A stretch of 38,467 bases of DNA, taken from assembly GCA_016283615.1 (NCBI GenBank), contig JAEENG010000209.1:1-38467 (forward strand), given 5' to 3'. Origin of the DNA: Treponema sp. (lineage in GTDB: Bacteria > Spirochaetota > Spirochaetia > Treponematales > Treponemataceae). The notes beneath the pieces are model-generated. The model was not told the origin of the DNA. It was given only the letters and a program-made list of their open reading frames with translations, and did no database searches. The position numbers and the translations under genes are program-made. Positions 2,249 through 14,481 of this stretch are shown here, in pieces (the first letter of the stretch is position 1; each line of letters starts with the position of its first letter).

Positions 2249-4216
2249 TTATTTTATTAATTCAGCAAGTTTTTCTGCTGTAAAGCCGAAGGCTTCCGCA
2301 ATTTTCTTGCCAGGTCCGCTTTCGCCAAAGCGGTCGATTGTAAACAAATCTTTTTTGTCGTTAACGTAGCTTTCCCATCCGGTTGAACATCCGGCTTCTG
2401 TAACAACAACGCGTTTTGCTCCGCCAAGGATTTGAGCCTTAAAGGCGTCGTCCTGAGCTTCGAAAAGTTTTTTGTCCATTACACTTACTACGCGAACAGC
2501 CTTTCCGGTTACCTTTGCTGCAGCATCAAGAGCCATGCAAACTTCACTGCCTGTAGCAAGGATTGTTACATCAGGAGTATCGCTTCCTTTTTTAACAATG
2601 TAAGCGCCCTGCCTGATAGTGTTTTTCCAGTTTGAATCCTCTTTTGCATAAACAGGAACATTCTGTCTTGTAAGGGCAAGAACAACCGGATGGTCCTTGC
2701 TTTCCATAGCCATGTGCCATGCACTTACAGTTTCTTCAGCATCGCCCGGTCTCAAAACCTGTACGCCCGGAATAGCCCTCAGAGAAGCGAGCTGTTCAAT
2801 CGGCTGGTGTGTGGGACCGTCTTCGCCAAGGTAAATTGAGTCATGAGTCAAATCGTAGATTACAGGCTGCTTCATGATGGAAGCGAGACGAATTGACGGT
2901 CTCATGTAATCACTGAATACAAGGTATGTTGCAACGAACGGGCGGATTCCTCCGTGGAGACTCATTCCGGCAGCTTCGCTTGCCATTCCAAACTCGCGGA
3001 TACCGTATTCAATTGAACGGCCTGCTCTGTTTGAAGGTGTATAAGTTCCACCATCACACTTCATTCCTGATTTATTTGAACCCTTAAGGTCTGCACTTCC
3101 ACCAACGAGATATGAATGGCTCAGACCCATTGTGTTGATCATATCGCCGCTTGCAGTACGTGTTGCAACAGAAGCTCCAATTTCGTAAGCCGGGTCTGCA
3201 GCAGAAGCAGTTTCTGTTCCTTCGTAAGAAGCCTTCCACTGTTTTGCAAGTTCAGGATTTTCATCTGCCCAGGCGTTAAATTCTTTGTTCCAGTCGTCTT
3301 CTTTTCTGGCAAAGTCAGCTTTCTTTTCGTTAAAGTAGCGCAATGCATCCGGATCAACATAGAAAAATTCTTCAGGGCTGATTCCGAGAGCCTTCTTTGT
3401 AAGGGCTACATCGTTGTCACCGAGAGGTTCGCCGTGTACGGCAGGAGTTCCCTGTTTTGGTGCAAACTTACCGATAACTGACTTGAGCATAATCAAAGTC
3501 GGTTTGTCAGAGCATTTTTTAGCCTTTTCAACAAGTTTTACAAGGCCCTTAACATTGTACATGTCGCCTTTCAAAACCTGCCAGCCGTATGCTTCGTAGC
3601 GCTTTCCGATATCTTCCGTAAAAGTAATGTCAGTTGAACCGTCGATGGAAATTTTATTCTGATCGTAGAATACAATCAGTTTGCCGAGCTTGTTGTGACC
3701 TGCAAAAGAACTTGCTTCAGAAGAAACACCTTCTTCAAGACAGCCTTCGCCGACAAGAGCATATGTGTAGTGATCTACGATTTTGTGATTTTTAGTATTA
3801 TATTTTGCAGCCAGGTGTGATTCTGCGAGAGCCATACCAACAGCAAGTGCAATGCCCTGACCAAGAGGACCACTTGTGTTTTCTACACCGTCTGTGTAGC
3901 CGTATTCCGGGTGTCCCGGGCAGGCCGAACCAATCTGGCGGAAGTTTTTGATGTCTTCCATTGTAACTTTGTAGCCGCTCAAATGCAAAATTGAATAAAG
4001 CAGCATTGAACCATGTCCTGCAGATAAAACAAAGCGATCACGATCAGCCCATTTTGAATCAGCCGGATTGTGCTTGAGGATTTCTCCGTACAAAACAGCA
4101 GCAAGCTCTGCACATCCAAGCGGGAGTCCAGGATGACCTGATTTTGCTTTCTGGATAGCATCGATTGACAAACTGCGAATTGATTTTGCAACGGCAGCAA
4201 TACCTTTTGTGTCCAT
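2249..4216 (-). CDS. tkt: Transketolase
   Basis: A thiamine-diphosphate enzyme that transfers two-carbon ketol units between sugar phosphates in the non-oxidative pentose phosphate pathway, linking ribose-5-P and erythrose-4-P supply to glycolysis. At 655 residues it has the usual full length. KSGHPGLPLG and AGHGSML near the N-terminus and GPLGQGIALAVGMA are typical. The thiamine-binding motif begins GEGCLEEG and ends DQNKISIDG. The pyrimidine and C-terminal domains follow (EYGIREFGMA, HDSIYLGEDGPTHQP, VVTEAGCSTGW). Start ATG 4216 is preceded by AAGGGG. It lies 36 bases after the PtsN-like gene with no terminator between, so it is probably the last gene of a three-gene operon. Confidence 0.97.
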   Translation of the reverse strand: MDTKGIAAVAKSIRSLSIDAIQKAKSGHPGLPLGCAELAAVLYGEILKHNPADSKWADRDRFVLSAGHGSMLLYSILHLSGYKVTMEDIKNFRQIGSACPGHPEYGYTDGVENTSGPLGQGIALAVGMALAESHLAAKYNTKNHKIVDHYTYALVGEGCLEEGVSSEASSFAGHNKLGKLIVFYDQNKISIDGSTDITFTEDIGKRYEAYGWQVLKGDMYNVKGLVKLVEKAKKCSDKPTLIMLKSVIGKFAPKQGTPAVHGEPLGDNDVALTKKALGISPEEFFYVDPDALRYFNEKKADFARKEDDWNKEFNAWADENPELAKQWKASYEGTETASAADPAYEIGASVATRTASGDMINTMGLSHSYLVGGSADLKGSNKSGMKCDGGTYTPSNRAGRSIEYGIREFGMASEAAGMSLHGGIRPFVATYLVFSDYMRPSIRLASIMKQPVIYDLTHDSIYLGEDGPTHQPIEQLASLRAIPGVQVLRPGDAEETVSAWHMAMESKDHPVVLALTRQNVPVYAKEDSNWKNTIRQGAYIVKKGSDTPDVTILATGSEVCMALDAAAKVTGKAVRVVSVMDKKLFEAQDDAFKAQILGGAKRVVVTEAGCSTGWESYVNDKKDLFTIDRFGESGPGKKIAEAFGFTAEKLAELIK

Positions 4217-4749: not shown

Positions 4750-6216
4750 TCAGATAACTTTGAATCTTTTAGCAAGAGATCTGTCAACAGCTGCCTTTAA
4801 GCGGGTTCTTATGTCTTCAAAATTATATTCCATGCCTTCAAGCGAAAGTTTAATTGCAGTTTGTTCTTCGTCTGCACATTCCTTTTCACCGGCAAGCATT
4901 TCGAGCATCCTTGTAATGTGAGCAAACAATTGTGAAAGGGTTACAAGTTCCTGCTGCGGGAACTTAACAATTTCTTTGCCTGCACAATCTACTTCGTAAA
5001 CAAGGTCGCCTACTCTTGAATACAAACTCAATGCGTCATGTCTGATTGAACCCATCGCAAAATCAGCAAATCTGTTGTATTTGTTACGGATTATAGCATT
5101 TCGCCGCATAATATGCAATGTAAAGTCAGATCTCTCTTTTTCTGTCATTTGAATTGAACTCGGAATCATTGCTTCGCACAACGAATCCAGATCATCTTTT
5201 TTTTCATACAGCTGGTCTTTTATATAGCAGTCAATTATATACTCAGGCATTCCACTGAATCTTGCGGGAGCAAAATCATCTTTATCGGACCTTCCGTGGA
5301 AAAGTGTGTCCATATTCCACTTGCCTACCGCAGGAACATCTTCATTCTTTTTCCAGAGACGTGTTTCTACGCCAAAAAGTTCCATACCAACGCGTGCAGC
5401 CTTGTCCAGAAATTCATGAATCGAACTGCATTCCGGAGAACATAACTCGCGCCGGTTTTCGTAAAAAGCAAAACCGAGCTGCTGTTCCATTGAATTACAC
5501 GGGCCCATCTTGTCAAAACTTAAAAGAAGTGCATCTTCAAGTTTTTTACACCATTTTTCGCGTTCAGTAATTTCTGCGGCACGGATAAATGGATTTTTGT
5601 TGTGTTCGATTTCCGGAAAGATTTCTATAATGCCTCTGTCCCAGTTGTTGACACGGCAGAGAATTCTGTCGCCTTTCTGAAAGTCAAAGTCTTCCATTAC
5701 GCGTTCAAGAGAAACTGCCGTGAGCTTTAATTTTGGCGGAAGTTCAAAACCGTTGTTTGCCAGGTTTAAATCTGCGTTTATCGGGTCTGCTCCGATGTAC
5801 TGACTTGCGTATTCATCACCGTAAAAGGTAAAGAGGTCGCGGGCGGTGTTACAGTCCGTTTCAAATGTAGTCTTCGGAAGAATTTTACCCGCATACTCAA
5901 AATCCAGGCTGCAGGAAAGCATTTCGCCGTCCACAAACGGCATACATCTGTCGCCCGGTACAAAAACTTTCTGGTCCAGTTCCTGCTGAGTCGGAACAAA
6001 ACTAAAGAACATTCCGGTAAATGCGCCGGCCTGAGTTATAAAATGATTGCCTTCAAGTGCAAAAACTCTTTCGTCCATCTGAAGAAATTCAATCAATTCA
6101 TCCTTATCAACTTTTTTGCCGCAGGTTTTCATCAACTGGGCAAGATCGTTGACTGTAAATGGAGAAGTATAATTTCTTAAAAATCTTTCGAGCAGAGATT
6201 CTAAACTCAGGTTCAT
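4750..6216 (-). CDS. Uncharacterised 488-residue protein
   Basis: I do not recognise this protein. It is soluble by inspection, with no signal peptide or membrane segment. The first 60 or so residues (LRNYTSPFTVNDLAQLMK...ELIEFLQMDERVFALEGNHFI) resemble a winged-helix or helix-turn-helix fold. The middle has FDFQKGDRILCRVNNWDRG, a beta-rich stretch, and a KNPFIRAAEITEREKW segment. The C-terminal half is mainly helical and acidic, ending in SLAKRFKVI. No catalytic motif is obvious. The ATG at 6216 has no Shine-Dalgarno but sits just behind a promoter. It is the first gene of the probable operon with the PtsN-like protein and transketolase, 35 bases upstream of the former. Codon use matches the neighbours, so recent transfer is not indicated. 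Confidence 0.8.
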   Translation of the reverse strand: MNLSLESLLERFLRNYTSPFTVNDLAQLMKTCGKKVDKDELIEFLQMDERVFALEGNHFITQAGAFTGMFFSFVPTQQELDQKVFVPGDRCMPFVDGEMLSCSLDFEYAGKILPKTTFETDCNTARDLFTFYGDEYASQYIGADPINADLNLANNGFELPPKLKLTAVSLERVMEDFDFQKGDRILCRVNNWDRGIIEIFPEIEHNKNPFIRAAEITEREKWCKKLEDALLLSFDKMGPCNSMEQQLGFAFYENRRELCSPECSSIHEFLDKAARVGMELFGVETRLWKKNEDVPAVGKWNMDTLFHGRSDKDDFAPARFSGMPEYIIDCYIKDQLYEKKDDLDSLCEAMIPSSIQMTEKERSDFTLHIMRRNAIIRNKYNRFADFAMGSIRHDALSLYSRVGDLVYEVDCAGKEIVKFPQQELVTLSQLFAHITRMLEMLAGEKECADEEQTAIKLSLEGMEYNFEDIRTRLKAAVDRSLAKRFKVI

Positions 6217-6315: not shown

Positions 6316-6963
6316 TTATTTAGTTTCGCGGATGTCGAGAATTTTTACGTTGCAGCCGTTCAGGATAGATTCAACTTCTTTGAGCGAAATATTACCTACC
6401 TTGATTGTTACGTTGCGCTTTGAAACATCGATTCCTTCAGTAGTTACCGTAGAAACAATATTTGCGTTCTTTTCGGCAAGTGCCTGGGTAATACGTGCAA
6501 GTTCACCAGGTTTTTCGAGAGCTTCGAGTGTTACGCGTACGCCCGGATGACGGGCACCAAACATGTTTACAAAGGCGTTAAAAATATCTGTTTCTGTGAT
6601 GATTCCGCTCAAAATGCCTTCGCACAGAACCGGAAGACAGCCGATTTTTTTGTCTGCCATAATGCGGGCAGCTTCCTCGATTACCTCATCGCAGTCAACA
6701 GTTACAACATTTTTAACCATAACCTTTTCAACCTTGAGTTTAGACAAAAGGTATCCAAGTTCATAAATATCGAGGGTAGAAGCACTTGATGGATCTGCTT
6801 TCTGAAGATCATTCTTAGTTACGATTCCAACAAGACGATTTGATTTATCAAGAACAGGCAACTTATTGATTTTTTCTTTATTCATAAGAGCCTTTGCGTC
6901 AGTTACAGAAGTGTCCGGTCCTACATAAATAGGATTTTTAGTCATAATATCACAAACTTTCAT
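6316..6963 (-). CDS. CBS-CBS-ACT domain protein (AcuB-like)
   Basis: A 215-residue regulatory protein. Two CBS domains occupy about residues 1-60 (MTKNPIYVGPDTSVTDA, VGIVTKNDL) and 75-135 (MVKNVVTVDCDEVIEEA, SGIITETDIFNAFV). An ACT domain fills about 138-212 (EKPGELARITQALAEKNANI). CBS pairs usually bind adenosyl nucleotides and ACT domains usually bind amino acids, so this is a plausible nucleotide/amino-acid sensor with no catalytic domain of its own. The layout resembles Bacillus AcuB. ATG 6963 has a strong ribosome binding site, GGAGG. It lies 43 bases after livF with its own extended -10, and its position behind an amino-acid importer suggests a role in amino-acid control. That role is inference. 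Confidence 0.85.
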   Translation of the reverse strand: MKVCDIMTKNPIYVGPDTSVTDAKALMNKEKINKLPVLDKSNRLVGIVTKNDLQKADPSSASTLDIYELGYLLSKLKVEKVMVKNVVTVDCDEVIEEAARIMADKKIGCLPVLCEGILSGIITETDIFNAFVNMFGARHPGVRVTLEALEKPGELARITQALAEKNANIVSTVTTEGIDVSKRNVTIKVGNISLKEVESILNGCNVKILDIRETK

Positions 6964-10676: not shown

Positions 10677-11813
10677 TTACGGCTGTACTGTAGTTTTGTA
10701 AGCTGTTGTCAAAGCACCGTCCTTGCGGATAACTTCGAGCATTACAGCTGATTTAATCGGGTTGCGTTTGTCATCGAATGTGAGGTGACCTGTTACATAA
10801 TCACCATCAGTCTTTTCCAATGCATCACGAACAGCTTCGCTGTCAGCGCTTCCTGCAGCAGCAATTGCGTCCTTGAGCATGTAAACTGAGTCGTATCCGA
10901 GAGCAGCAAATGCGTTAGGAACTTTGTTGTATTTAGCCTGGAAAGCTTCAACAAACTTCTGAACAGCACCTTCTGTTGAGTCAGTAGCATAGTGGTTAGA
11001 GTAGAAACCATTGAGAACTTCGTCACCGGCGTTGTCGTTGTTCATTCCGTCCCATCCGTCAGCACCAACGATTGGTGTGTTGATTCCCTGAGCACGGAGC
11101 TGTTTTGCGATCAAAGCAACTGTTCCGTAGTAATCCGGGAGGTATACTACATCAGGATTAGCGTTCTTAATCTTTGTAAGCTGAGCGTTAAAGTCCTTAT
11201 CGCCAGTTGCATAAGATTCTTTTGCAACGATTTTACCGCCGAGTGATTCGAATGTAGCAACGAAGTTGTCTGTCAAACCAACAGAGTAGTCGTTACCAAT
11301 GTCGTAAAGAACGGCAGCTTTGCGTGAACCGAGTGTTTCGTAAGAGAATTTTCCTCCTACAGTTCCCTGGAACGGGTCAATAAAACATGTACGGAAAATG
11401 AAGTTTCCGGCATCTGTAATTGCAGGTGCTGTAGCAGCAGGAGCAATCTGAAGAACTTTCTGAGCCTGTGCAAGCTGTGTGATAGCCTGTGTACAACCAG
11501 AAGTCAAAGAACCAATTACGAGTTTGATTCCATCTTTTGTAGTCAATTTCTTATATGCGCTTACTGATTTTTCAGGATTTCCTTCATCATCTTCAGCAAC
11601 AACCTTGAGCAATTTGCCGTTTACACCACCGGCTGCGTTGATTTCTTCAACAGCAAGTTCGATACCGTTCTTGCATTCAACACCGTAAACAGCAACTGGA
11701 CCAGACAAAGGTCCGATAGAACCAACTTTAATTACATCTTCTGATTTTCCTGAACAGCCAAGAACCAGAAGACCAGCCATTGCCAAAGACAAAGCTCCAA
11801 CAATCTTTTTCAT
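10677..11813 (-). CDS. livK: Branched-chain amino acid-type substrate-binding lipoprotein LivK
   Basis: A periplasmic binding protein (type 1 fold, Peripla_BP_6) that delivers amino acid to LivHMGF. The signal peptide ends in the lipobox LVLGC, so Cys20 should be lipidated by Lgt. After it come VGSIGPLSGPVAVYG and GIELAVEEINAAGGVNGK, typical of Leu/Ile/Val-binding proteins. VIGSLTSGCTQAI probably contributes ligand contacts. It is 378 residues, a standard length. ATG 11813 follows GGAGG. Substrate class is inferred from the family; related binding proteins take urea, amides or aromatic compounds, so leucine or valine specificity is not proven. The gene is divergent from the soluble chemoreceptor gene. 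Confidence 0.94.
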   Translation of the reverse strand: MKKIVGALSLAMAGLLVLGCSGKSEDVIKVGSIGPLSGPVAVYGVECKNGIELAVEEINAAGGVNGKLLKVVAEDDEGNPEKSVSAYKKLTTKDGIKLVIGSLTSGCTQAITQLAQAQKVLQIAPAATAPAITDAGNFIFRTCFIDPFQGTVGGKFSYETLGSRKAAVLYDIGNDYSVGLTDNFVATFESLGGKIVAKESYATGDKDFNAQLTKIKNANPDVVYLPDYYGTVALIAKQLRAQGINTPIVGADGWDGMNNDNAGDEVLNGFYSNHYATDSTEGAVQKFVEAFQAKYNKVPNAFAALGYDSVYMLKDAIAAAGSADSEAVRDALEKTDGDYVTGHLTFDDKRNPIKSAVMLEVIRKDGALTTAYKTTVQP

Positions 11814-11910: not shown

Positions 11911-11981
11911 AATTTTTAATTCAAGCCTGCCGTTGTTGAATTTTTATAACGATTTTTTAACACAAGTTGTTAAAGGAGTAG

Positions 11982-12036
11982 TATAATTACCGATAATAAT
12001 AGTGAGAATTTCTTAATAAACTATTAATGTGAGAAT
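11982..12036 (+). promoter_or_regulatory. Possible promoter and direct repeats upstream of the chemoreceptor gene
   Basis: TATAAT at 11982-11987 lies about 50 bases before ATG 12040 and has no convincing -35. GTGAGAAT occurs twice on the same strand, at 12002-12009 and 12029-12036, 27 bases apart. The second copy sits where the ribosome binding site would be. Confidence 0.3.
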
Positions 12037-12039
12037 ACT

Positions 12040-14481
12040 ATGAATAAGAATACTATTGCTTTTTTAACCAGATCTCTTGTAGACGCAACCGGAAGCAACA
12101 TGTGGCGCGGAATAAAGAATGGTTGTTTAAAAGATGGAAGACCTTTATTCACCTTCAGGGGCCCTGTTTTAAATAAGGGACAAGGTTCAATCATCTATCA
12201 CCTCATCGATGATAATTCTGTTTCTGGAATTATTTCCTGGGCATCAAGTGATGCTGATCCTGCAACAACTGAGTACTACAAAAAATATCAGAAAACACCG
12301 CTTATCTGTATGACATTCCGACTCCCGGGACACCCGCTTATTGTTACAGACTGTAAGACCGGAATTATGGAAATGATGGACCACCTTATCGATGTTCATC
12401 ATTTTACAAAAATCGCATTTATCCGCGGACCGGAAGCGCACGTTTACGCAAAAGAACGCTATGAAGGCTATCTTGAAAGTCTCGCAAAACATAGAATTCC
12501 TGTAAACAACGACCTTATTTCTCCTTGCGGAGGATGGGCTTTAGGCGACGGCGCAAAGGCTGTCAACGCATGGATTAATAAAGGCTTTGTAATCGGAAAG
12601 GATATCGAAGCTGTCGTTGCAGTCGGCGATAACGTTGCAATCGGTGCCGAAGAAGAACTTATTGCAAAAGGATACTCAGTTCCACACGATATCGCAGTTT
12701 GCGGTTTTAACGGTACAAACGATGCCGCATGGAGCAATCCTCCGATCACAACTGTAGAAATGCCGTTTTACGGACTCGGAACAAAGGGTTACGAAACTTT
12801 AACTTCTTTGATGAACAATCAGCCAGTTCCGGAAGTATTCCGCTACCAGACAAAACTCGTCCTTGGAGAATCTTGCGGTTGTACATCAGTTTCTGTAAAA
12901 AAAGCATTTTTGAATATCGGTGCCAAAGATGAAGAGAGCGGCGGATTATTCAAAAAACGAAATACAGTTTCAATGACAGAAAGTGAATTAGTTTCATTAT
13001 TCAATTCTGCAACATGGAAAGATAAACTCAAACTTATCATATTAAATGTTGTGGACCATAACCGTTATTCACTTCCACAAATTCACGAATTTTTTGATAC
13101 ATTTACAATCCGCTTTATCGGAGCCCTCGTACAGGATTCACTTGATCCAAAATCAAAACCAATCTTTATGGAAGAATTGTCACGCGGCCTGAATAAATTT
13201 ATTCCTATTTCAAAGGAATTTTCTGTATGGCAGGACATTATTTCGGTTTGCCGTGCATACACACTCCCGGCCCTGCAGAAGCATCCGGTTTACTACAAAA
13301 AAGCAGATAACCTTTTCCAGCAGGCGCGTATCCTGATTAACGAAGTTGACTGTCGTACCCAGAAGCAGACTGTTCTGCTCGAAGCGCGTAAAGAAGCCAA
13401 CTTGAGAAATATCAGTACACAGATTCTTTCATGCTCAGACAAAGAGCAGCTGATGAATCTGCTTGAAAAGTCTCTTCCTAAACTCGATATTTCCGGCTGT
13501 TATGTAGTTTTGTATAATGACTGCAAATACACCGAAGAAAATCATCTTATTCCGGAAAAGAGTACATTGATTCTCGCAATACGTGGCGGAACAAGAGTTG
13601 CCCTTCCTGATGAAGGAATGGTATTCAAAACAAAAGAAATCGTTCCAGACCAGATTATGGGCAGCGGTGAAGGCGAACTTTTTGAAGTTGAATCTCTGCA
13701 CTATCAGGACCAGTATCTCGGTTATATCGTATTTGAATCAAAGGCCGAAATTGGAACAACTTTTTCAACACTCCGCGACCAGATTTCATGTTCATTGTAC
13801 AGCGCACTTCTTCTGGAAGAACGCAACAAGAGCCGCGTAAGACTCGAAAGAACAATGCATACAATGACAGAAAAGGCTGACCTTGTATCTAGCCAGTCTG
13901 AAGGTATTTCCATCAATATCAATGGAATTTCAAAATCAATGGGTGACGTTACTGCAAATATCAAAAATATTTCAGGCAACATCGGTACAGTTACCGACAC
14001 AATTGATTCTGCAAACAAATTGATTTCAGAAGCAAACCAGGCTATCGGACAGCTTGTTGAAAGCACCGTTCAGATTAAAAACTCTATCCACATGATTAAC
14101 GACATTGCGGAAACCACAAACGTTCTTTCCCTCAATGCGGCAATCGAAGCGGCTCACGCTGGTGACGCCGGCCGTGGATTCAGTGTAGTTGCCAAGGAAG
14201 TTAAATCTCTTGCGGCCCAGACTGTAAATTCAACCAAGTCCATCCAGGAACTCGTTGAACATACATCAGACAATACCAAACAGACAGAAGAAATTATCAA
14301 CAAAACCTATTCTGCAATGCAGAAAATCGCTGAACTTGCAGACAACATCAAGCTGTCAATCAACGATCAGGTTAGTTCTTCAACATCGATTTCTACACAG
14401 TTGCAGGGTGCATCAGAAGGTGCAGTCCAGATTTCCAATGCAATTACAGAAATCGCTTCTCTTGGTGAAAAGCTGATTTAA
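12040..14481 (+). CDS. Soluble methyl-accepting chemoreceptor with LacI-type ligand domain
   Basis: An 813-residue fusion. Residues 1 to about 285 match the ligand-binding core of LacI/GalR regulators ([52 protein letters not shown]) and end in GESCGC at 276-281. The usual N-terminal DNA-binding helix is absent. Residues about 465-595 look like a GAF-type sensor. Residues about 600-813 are the helical signalling domain of methyl-accepting chemotaxis proteins, with the conserved tip around residues 690-720 ([20 protein letters not shown], then [12 protein letters not shown]). I see no signal peptide or transmembrane segment, so both ligand sensing and CheA/CheW contact should be cytoplasmic. 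The ligand is probably a sugar or small metabolite, but this is unknown. No CheR-docking pentapeptide is seen at the C-terminus. The ribosome binding site is weak. Confidence 0.9.

Follow-up and report, generated by a model that had tools for sequence, protein, structure and literature searches.

Most chemoreceptors read the outside of the cell. A small number of soluble receptors have been described, among them TlpD of Helicobacter pylori, a PAS-MCP-CZB chemoreceptor which, like Tm14 of Thermotoga maritima, is devoid of canonical methylation sites (PMC12871147). In Treponema denticola, the soluble MCP TDE2496 is coupled to ODP, can modulate CheA and has been proposed to become part of the membrane arrays (PMC7666581). 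Our analysis of a stretch of 38,467 nucleotides from Treponema sp. (hereafter the window; C187 among the contigs of an assembly of 2.36 Mb) points to a further soluble chemoreceptor that resembles these proteins in its signalling part and differs from them in its input.

As in TlpD, the predicted receptor is fully cytoplasmic, carries an MCP hairpin with a conserved tip and has no canonical methylation sites. The input of TlpD consists of PAS and a C-terminal zinc-binding CZB domain, whereas that of the receptor would consist of an N-terminal LacI-type clamshell and a GAF-like domain. Tm14 (PDB 3g67 and 3g6b; 213 aa), a soluble MCP with a hairpin close in length to that of the receptor, matched over its residues 35-205 (query residues 35-204, 170 residues aligned) but is without a ligand domain. 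TDE2496, a soluble MCP from the same genus, does not itself contain a sensing module, and its coupling to ODP is genetic, whereas the receptor has its sensor fused. The receptor shares its ligand-binding core (residues 5-280) with LacI/GalR factors such as LacI, CcpA, PurR and RbsR; unlike these regulators it lacks the helix-turn-helix and the hinge, its output is an MCP hairpin and its core ends in an SCGC motif.

Gene and domain organization

The gene spans exactly positions 12040-14481 of the forward strand, reproducing the boundaries given in the initial annotation, starts with ATG and encodes a product of 813 aa. The open frame comprises 817 codons and opens only four codons 5' of this ATG, and the N-terminus of the receptor is the first strand of the LacI-type core. 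Because the frame is closed so near upstream, no DNA-binding helix is possible before the receptor, and a helix-turn-helix as in LacI/GalR repressors was not found at its N-terminus. In comparisons with two close relatives, dN/dS was 0.049 and 0.058; this indicates purifying selection which, together with seven other complete orthologues sharing 44-60% identity over the full length, excludes a chance ORF. The receptor ORF is a real gene under selection.

Pfam searches recovered both ends of the architecture that had been proposed for this protein. The LacI/GalR-type ligand-binding core (residues 1-285; 12040-12894) was detected as Peripla_BP_3 (residues 114-279, E 3.8e-20, 73.1 bits against a cut-off of 26.5) and Peripla_BP_1 (residues 58-256, 41.3 bits against a cut-off of 22.2), and the methyl-accepting signalling domain as MCPsignal (residues 655-806, E 1.2e-28, 100.5 bits against a cut-off of 34.6). 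Consistent with this, residues 5-280 had LacI-family cores as their best solved relatives in the PDB, and residues 632-806 had MCP hairpins. The NCBIfam matches pointed to LacI-family regulators (CcpA, RbsR, CytR) for the front half and to chemoreceptors for the back half, both far under the family cut-offs. By alignment of relatives, the SCGC motif (residues 278-281; 12871-12882) lies at the end of the core. It is followed by a variable linker and helical region (residues 286-455; 12895-13404), the least conserved part of the protein (22-32% mean pairwise identity), where low-confidence models place helices. The full-length AlphaFold2 model (pLDDT 36.8) was unusable because its alignment had only 3 rows.

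The middle of the receptor (residues 456-598; 13405-13833) had been called GAF-like, and here the outcome was mixed. Pfam detected no GAF domain at any threshold tried, and a PDB profile search likewise detected none. Profile-profile comparison by hhalign gave moderate support: the middle of 41 relatives scored 29.8 (27 columns) against 23 spirochaete GAF_2 domains, and that of the MCP members alone scored 25.6 with 112 columns in register, compared with at most 15.5 for ten column-shuffled profiles and at most 12.5 for other parts of the receptor. A fragment model of 171 residues (pLDDT 55) displayed, at low confidence, a helix-helix element, then strands and then a long helix entering the hairpin; its best Foldseek match was insignificant (E 1.2), although many of the weak matches were GAF chains. 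Interpretation of the middle as a distant GAF-like domain running into the hairpin is fair but not proven.

The absence of a membrane segment was borne out by hydropathy for the receptor and seven full-length orthologues. The maximum 19-residue mean was 1.26 in the receptor and 0.97-1.42 in the orthologues, compared with about 1.9-3.5 in the membrane MCPs of the genome. The other complete MCPs of this genome showed clear membrane segments, except one other soluble MCP. This second soluble protein (L083:646-2733, forward strand, contig C122, 696 aa) combines Fe_hyd_lg_C (iron-only hydrogenase large subunit), ferredoxin-type clusters and an FeS motif with an MCP hairpin and has the appearance of a chemoreceptor for hydrogen or redox state. 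For the receptor itself, the anatomy of a cytosolic chemoreceptor with LacI-type input is well supported at the sequence level.

Signalling hairpin and chemosensory partners

The coiled-coil hairpin comprises a descending arm (residues 599-685; 13834-14094), matched by MCPsignal and PDB structures, a tip corresponding to the predicted CheA/CheW-contact and trimer region (residues 686-735; 14095-14244) and an ascending arm (residues 736-813; 14245-14478). It extends for about 103 residues after the tip, compared with 167 in most of the membrane MCPs of the genome. At seven residues per heptad these values correspond to 14-15 versus about 24 paired heptads, and by the 10.5-Angstrom rule for MCP hairpins the estimated lengths are roughly 150 versus 250 Angstrom (PMC6628036). 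No site fitting the methylation consensus [ASTG]2-x2-[EQ]2-x2-[ASTG]2 was found in the receptor (P0001), and no CheR/CheB pentapeptide tail was seen at its C-terminus. Many membrane MCPs of the genome contain the consensus at offsets that recur between them, and four orthologues have single sites. Such sites are not a requirement for chemoreceptors, as TlpD and Tm14 are without them too.

The genome encodes two chemosensory systems, compared with one reported for T. denticola. The operon on C175 (L112) is of F2 type and encodes CheA, CheW-CheRlike, CheX and CheY; the CheW-CheRlike protein marks F2 arrays, the typical arrays of spirochaetes (PMC7666581). The second system, on C129 (L067), consists of CheA, CheR, CheB, CheD, CheW and an MCP that is a transmembrane Cache receptor, and an orphan CheW is located on C196. 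The tip of the receptor carries His in place of Arg; this replacement was considered as a loss of function and rejected, since the same His is common to 13 of the 16 compared MCP tips of the genome (the remaining 3 have Arg; one receptor is counted twice among the 16, from two overlapping loci). Within a 38-residue tip window, identity of the receptor was 27-28/38 to R-type and 24-26/38 to the H-type majority. As the tip is thus slightly closer to R-type receptors despite the shared H-type His, the partner array is uncertain.

A second set of CheA, CheR, CheB, CheD, CheW and MCP, the marginal nearness of the tip to R-type receptors and a short hairpin that would mismatch the layers of membrane MCPs could all be accommodated if the receptor and the CheA system of C129 built a separate two-layer (sandwich) cluster in the cytoplasm, apart from the membrane array, and cytoplasmic sandwiches are known in other bacteria (PMC3964821). 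This arrangement appears less likely to us, given that the tip His is that of the H-type majority, that the MCP of the C129 system is itself transmembrane, and that no cytoplasmic arrays were observed in T. denticola despite its soluble MCP (PMC7666581).

Conservation and candidate ligand pocket

The receptor was present in 9/195 Treponemataceae genomes, its own genome and one contig-split copy included, and this rarity implies that it does not belong to the core chemotaxis machinery. No relatives were found among viral contigs, nor any plasmid record covering 80% of the receptor. A plasmid match in two pieces (H1) turned out to be a LacI gene adjoining a separate membrane MCP gene and was discarded as a fused receptor.

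Mean pairwise identity among the orthologues was 83% in the tip, 60% in the LacI-type core, 47% in the GAF-like domain and 32% in the helical region, with 35 of the 50 tip columns (70%) invariant. The tip is the most protected stretch, which matches the prediction for a working chemoreceptor. Within the core, the segments WASSD, RGPxxHxYAKERYE, GDNVAIG and GFNG were invariant or nearly so in eight orthologues, and by alignment to LacI regulators they are candidates for the lining of the ligand pocket. The same four segments differ in relatives with other outputs, and their retention among the MCP orthologues speaks for a single conserved ligand.

A recurring spirochaete input module

The first ~600 residues of the receptor represent a recurring spirochaete input module composed of the LacI-type core, SCGC, a helical linker and the GAF-like domain. 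Other outputs of this module include AraC-type DNA-binding (proteins of about 735 and 1067 aa), GGDEF, PAS-LuxR, histidine kinase-REC-phosphatase, plain histidine kinases and HD-GYP-like domains, some of these having been assigned by motif reading and not all by Pfam. Such relatives align with the receptor over about 600 residues, SCGC included, and differ from it in the output domain and in the pocket residues. Three AraC-type members are encoded in the receptor's own genome. When the architecture was sought across spirochaetes, as the initial annotation had suggested, its MCP form proved rare (8/393 genomes of the phylum sample, by our reading of the matches), and it was the input that recurred, on other outputs.

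In a tree of the module region, the orthologues joined two copies of another family of spirochaetes in one MCP clade (97% SH-aLRT), while a third family (f50) contributed two MCP proteins that grouped with GGDEF and kinase members; a single origin of the MCP versions may still hold. A further soluble module member with a divergent MCP-like tip was found in G022. A related soluble LacI-type protein from another Treponemataceae genus (L181:418-2610, reverse strand) has a strongly altered MCP tip (NASIQAAHVGKQGAGF), which possibly confers a different kinase specificity.

The SCGC motif, whose role could be metal-related, redox-related or structural, ends the LacI-type core in 41/41 aligned members whatever their output, and an SCGC-bearing protein is encoded at each of 20 further loci (20/20, in a listing confined to ORFs with the motif). 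Such invariance is what would be expected if SCGC, and not the sugar-type pocket, were the main input of a redox or metal sensor. We regard this as improbable, because strong conservation within the MCP clade extends to the pocket columns as well, and a short motif with two cysteines may have a purely structural role.

On a broader scale, we tentatively propose, at somewhat less than even confidence, that the LacI-type core with invariant SCGC, the helical linker and the GAF-like domain constitute a general cytosolic metabolite-sensing module of spirochaetes, which would have been joined to almost all classes of output known in bacteria: AraC/LuxR transcription factors, c-di-GMP enzymes, histidine kinases and, on at least one occasion and perhaps on two or three, chemoreceptors. 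The window protein would then be the swimming version, and the CGC cysteines possibly a shared metal or redox switch.

Genomic neighbourhood

The receptor gene is not located beside che genes. Its position, its rarity and the lack of methylation consensus sites would also be compatible with a hairpin serving as a structural or inhibitory part of the array, a decoy or spacer without ligand signalling. There is little to recommend this explanation, as a spacer would require neither 60% identity in its LacI-type core nor pocket segments that are invariant.

As initially annotated, livK (10677-11813, reverse strand; Peripla_BP_6 by Pfam) lies back to back with the receptor gene, and livH, livM, livG and livF are also present in the window. 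The functional link to the Liv importer that had been suggested did not hold up in the comparison of lineages. Liv genes stand beside the receptor in 3 of 9 orthologue lineages, namely that of the window (with L013 and L014), G059 and G052, and the neighbourhood comparison found none beside the orthologues of G113, G187, G162, G166, G019 and G146. In G162 and G146 the receptor lies, with no Liv genes, at the same edge of the ribosomal operon (rpoA/rplQ side) and faces a homologue of the 488-aa protein encoded at 4750-6216, followed by transketolase; the same pair faces it in G187, and its neighbours in G113, G166 and G019 are different again. The adjacency of receptor and importer is most simply explained as an accident of one lineage. 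That the receptor senses branched-chain amino acids imported by the divergent Liv system, as the back-to-back genes of the three lineages could suggest, is hardly credible, since the six other lineages have other neighbours (the 488-aa protein with transketolase, a 1339-/1363-aa protein, or other genes) and the core is LacI-type and not Liv-type Peripla_BP_6.

The 488-aa protein (reverse strand) has no significant Pfam or NCBIfam match; in relatives it stays beside transketolase (2249-4216 in the window) and often beside the receptor. A CBS-ACT domain protein (6316-6963, reverse strand), just downstream of the Liv genes, accompanies their operon in both G059 and G052; it could act as a regulator that responds to amino acids.

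A sigma-28-like promoter sequence, TAAA-N15-CCGATAA (11971-11996, forward strand), ends 43 bases before the ATG of the receptor. It recurs in L013 and L014, the two closest relatives only, and was found neither before the other orthologues nor before the genome's other MCP genes. Genome-wide, the pattern was enriched, with 18 matches against 1 for a reversed control; many of these matches fell within long frames, and a single one clearly preceded a flagellar rod-type gene. The evidence for the promoter is weak because many matches of the pattern fall within frames and because it is absent before the other MCPs and not kept in distant orthologues, and it was rejected as proof of a flagellar regulon.

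Proposed mechanism and significance

The combination of a LacI-type core with a conserved, putative kinase-binding tip supports, at the level of predicted domains, a soluble chemoreceptor. We think it likely that this gut-type Treponema protein is a one-piece cytosolic chemoreceptor whose LacI-type metabolite input steers chemotaxis. Sensing would take place in the cytoplasm, because the protein has neither a signal peptide nor a membrane segment. The clamshell would bind a small metabolite of the cytosol, by family precedent probably a sugar, a sugar phosphate or a nucleoside, and its closure would be transmitted through the helical linker and the GAF-like domain, as a dimer, to the short coiled-coil hairpin. 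The conserved tip would dock in the CheA/CheW baseplate and set CheA activity, so that swimming would respond to the internal nutrient or energy state, probably without methylation-based adaptation. The receptor would most likely insert from below into the membrane-bound array, as proposed for TDE2496 of T. denticola. In this scheme we infer ligand binding, control of the kinase through CheA/CheW, location and behaviour.

The soluble chemoreceptors cited above sense zinc or redox state, are coupled to a sensor of oxygen or are themselves without a sensor. Our literature search, with subscription papers outside its scope, found no description of a LacI-type input on a soluble chemoreceptor; the receptor thus adds to the known ones an input that we did not find described for them, an absence that is no proof of novelty. 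If the proposed mechanism is true, the LacI-type input would let chemotaxis read an internal metabolite directly and would thus amount to a true metabolism-dependent taxis with a definable ligand. The MCP version of the module would route its cytosolic signal to chemotaxis. In sister proteins the same input is joined to transcription, c-di-GMP or kinase outputs, which would make the family a natural experiment in output swapping.
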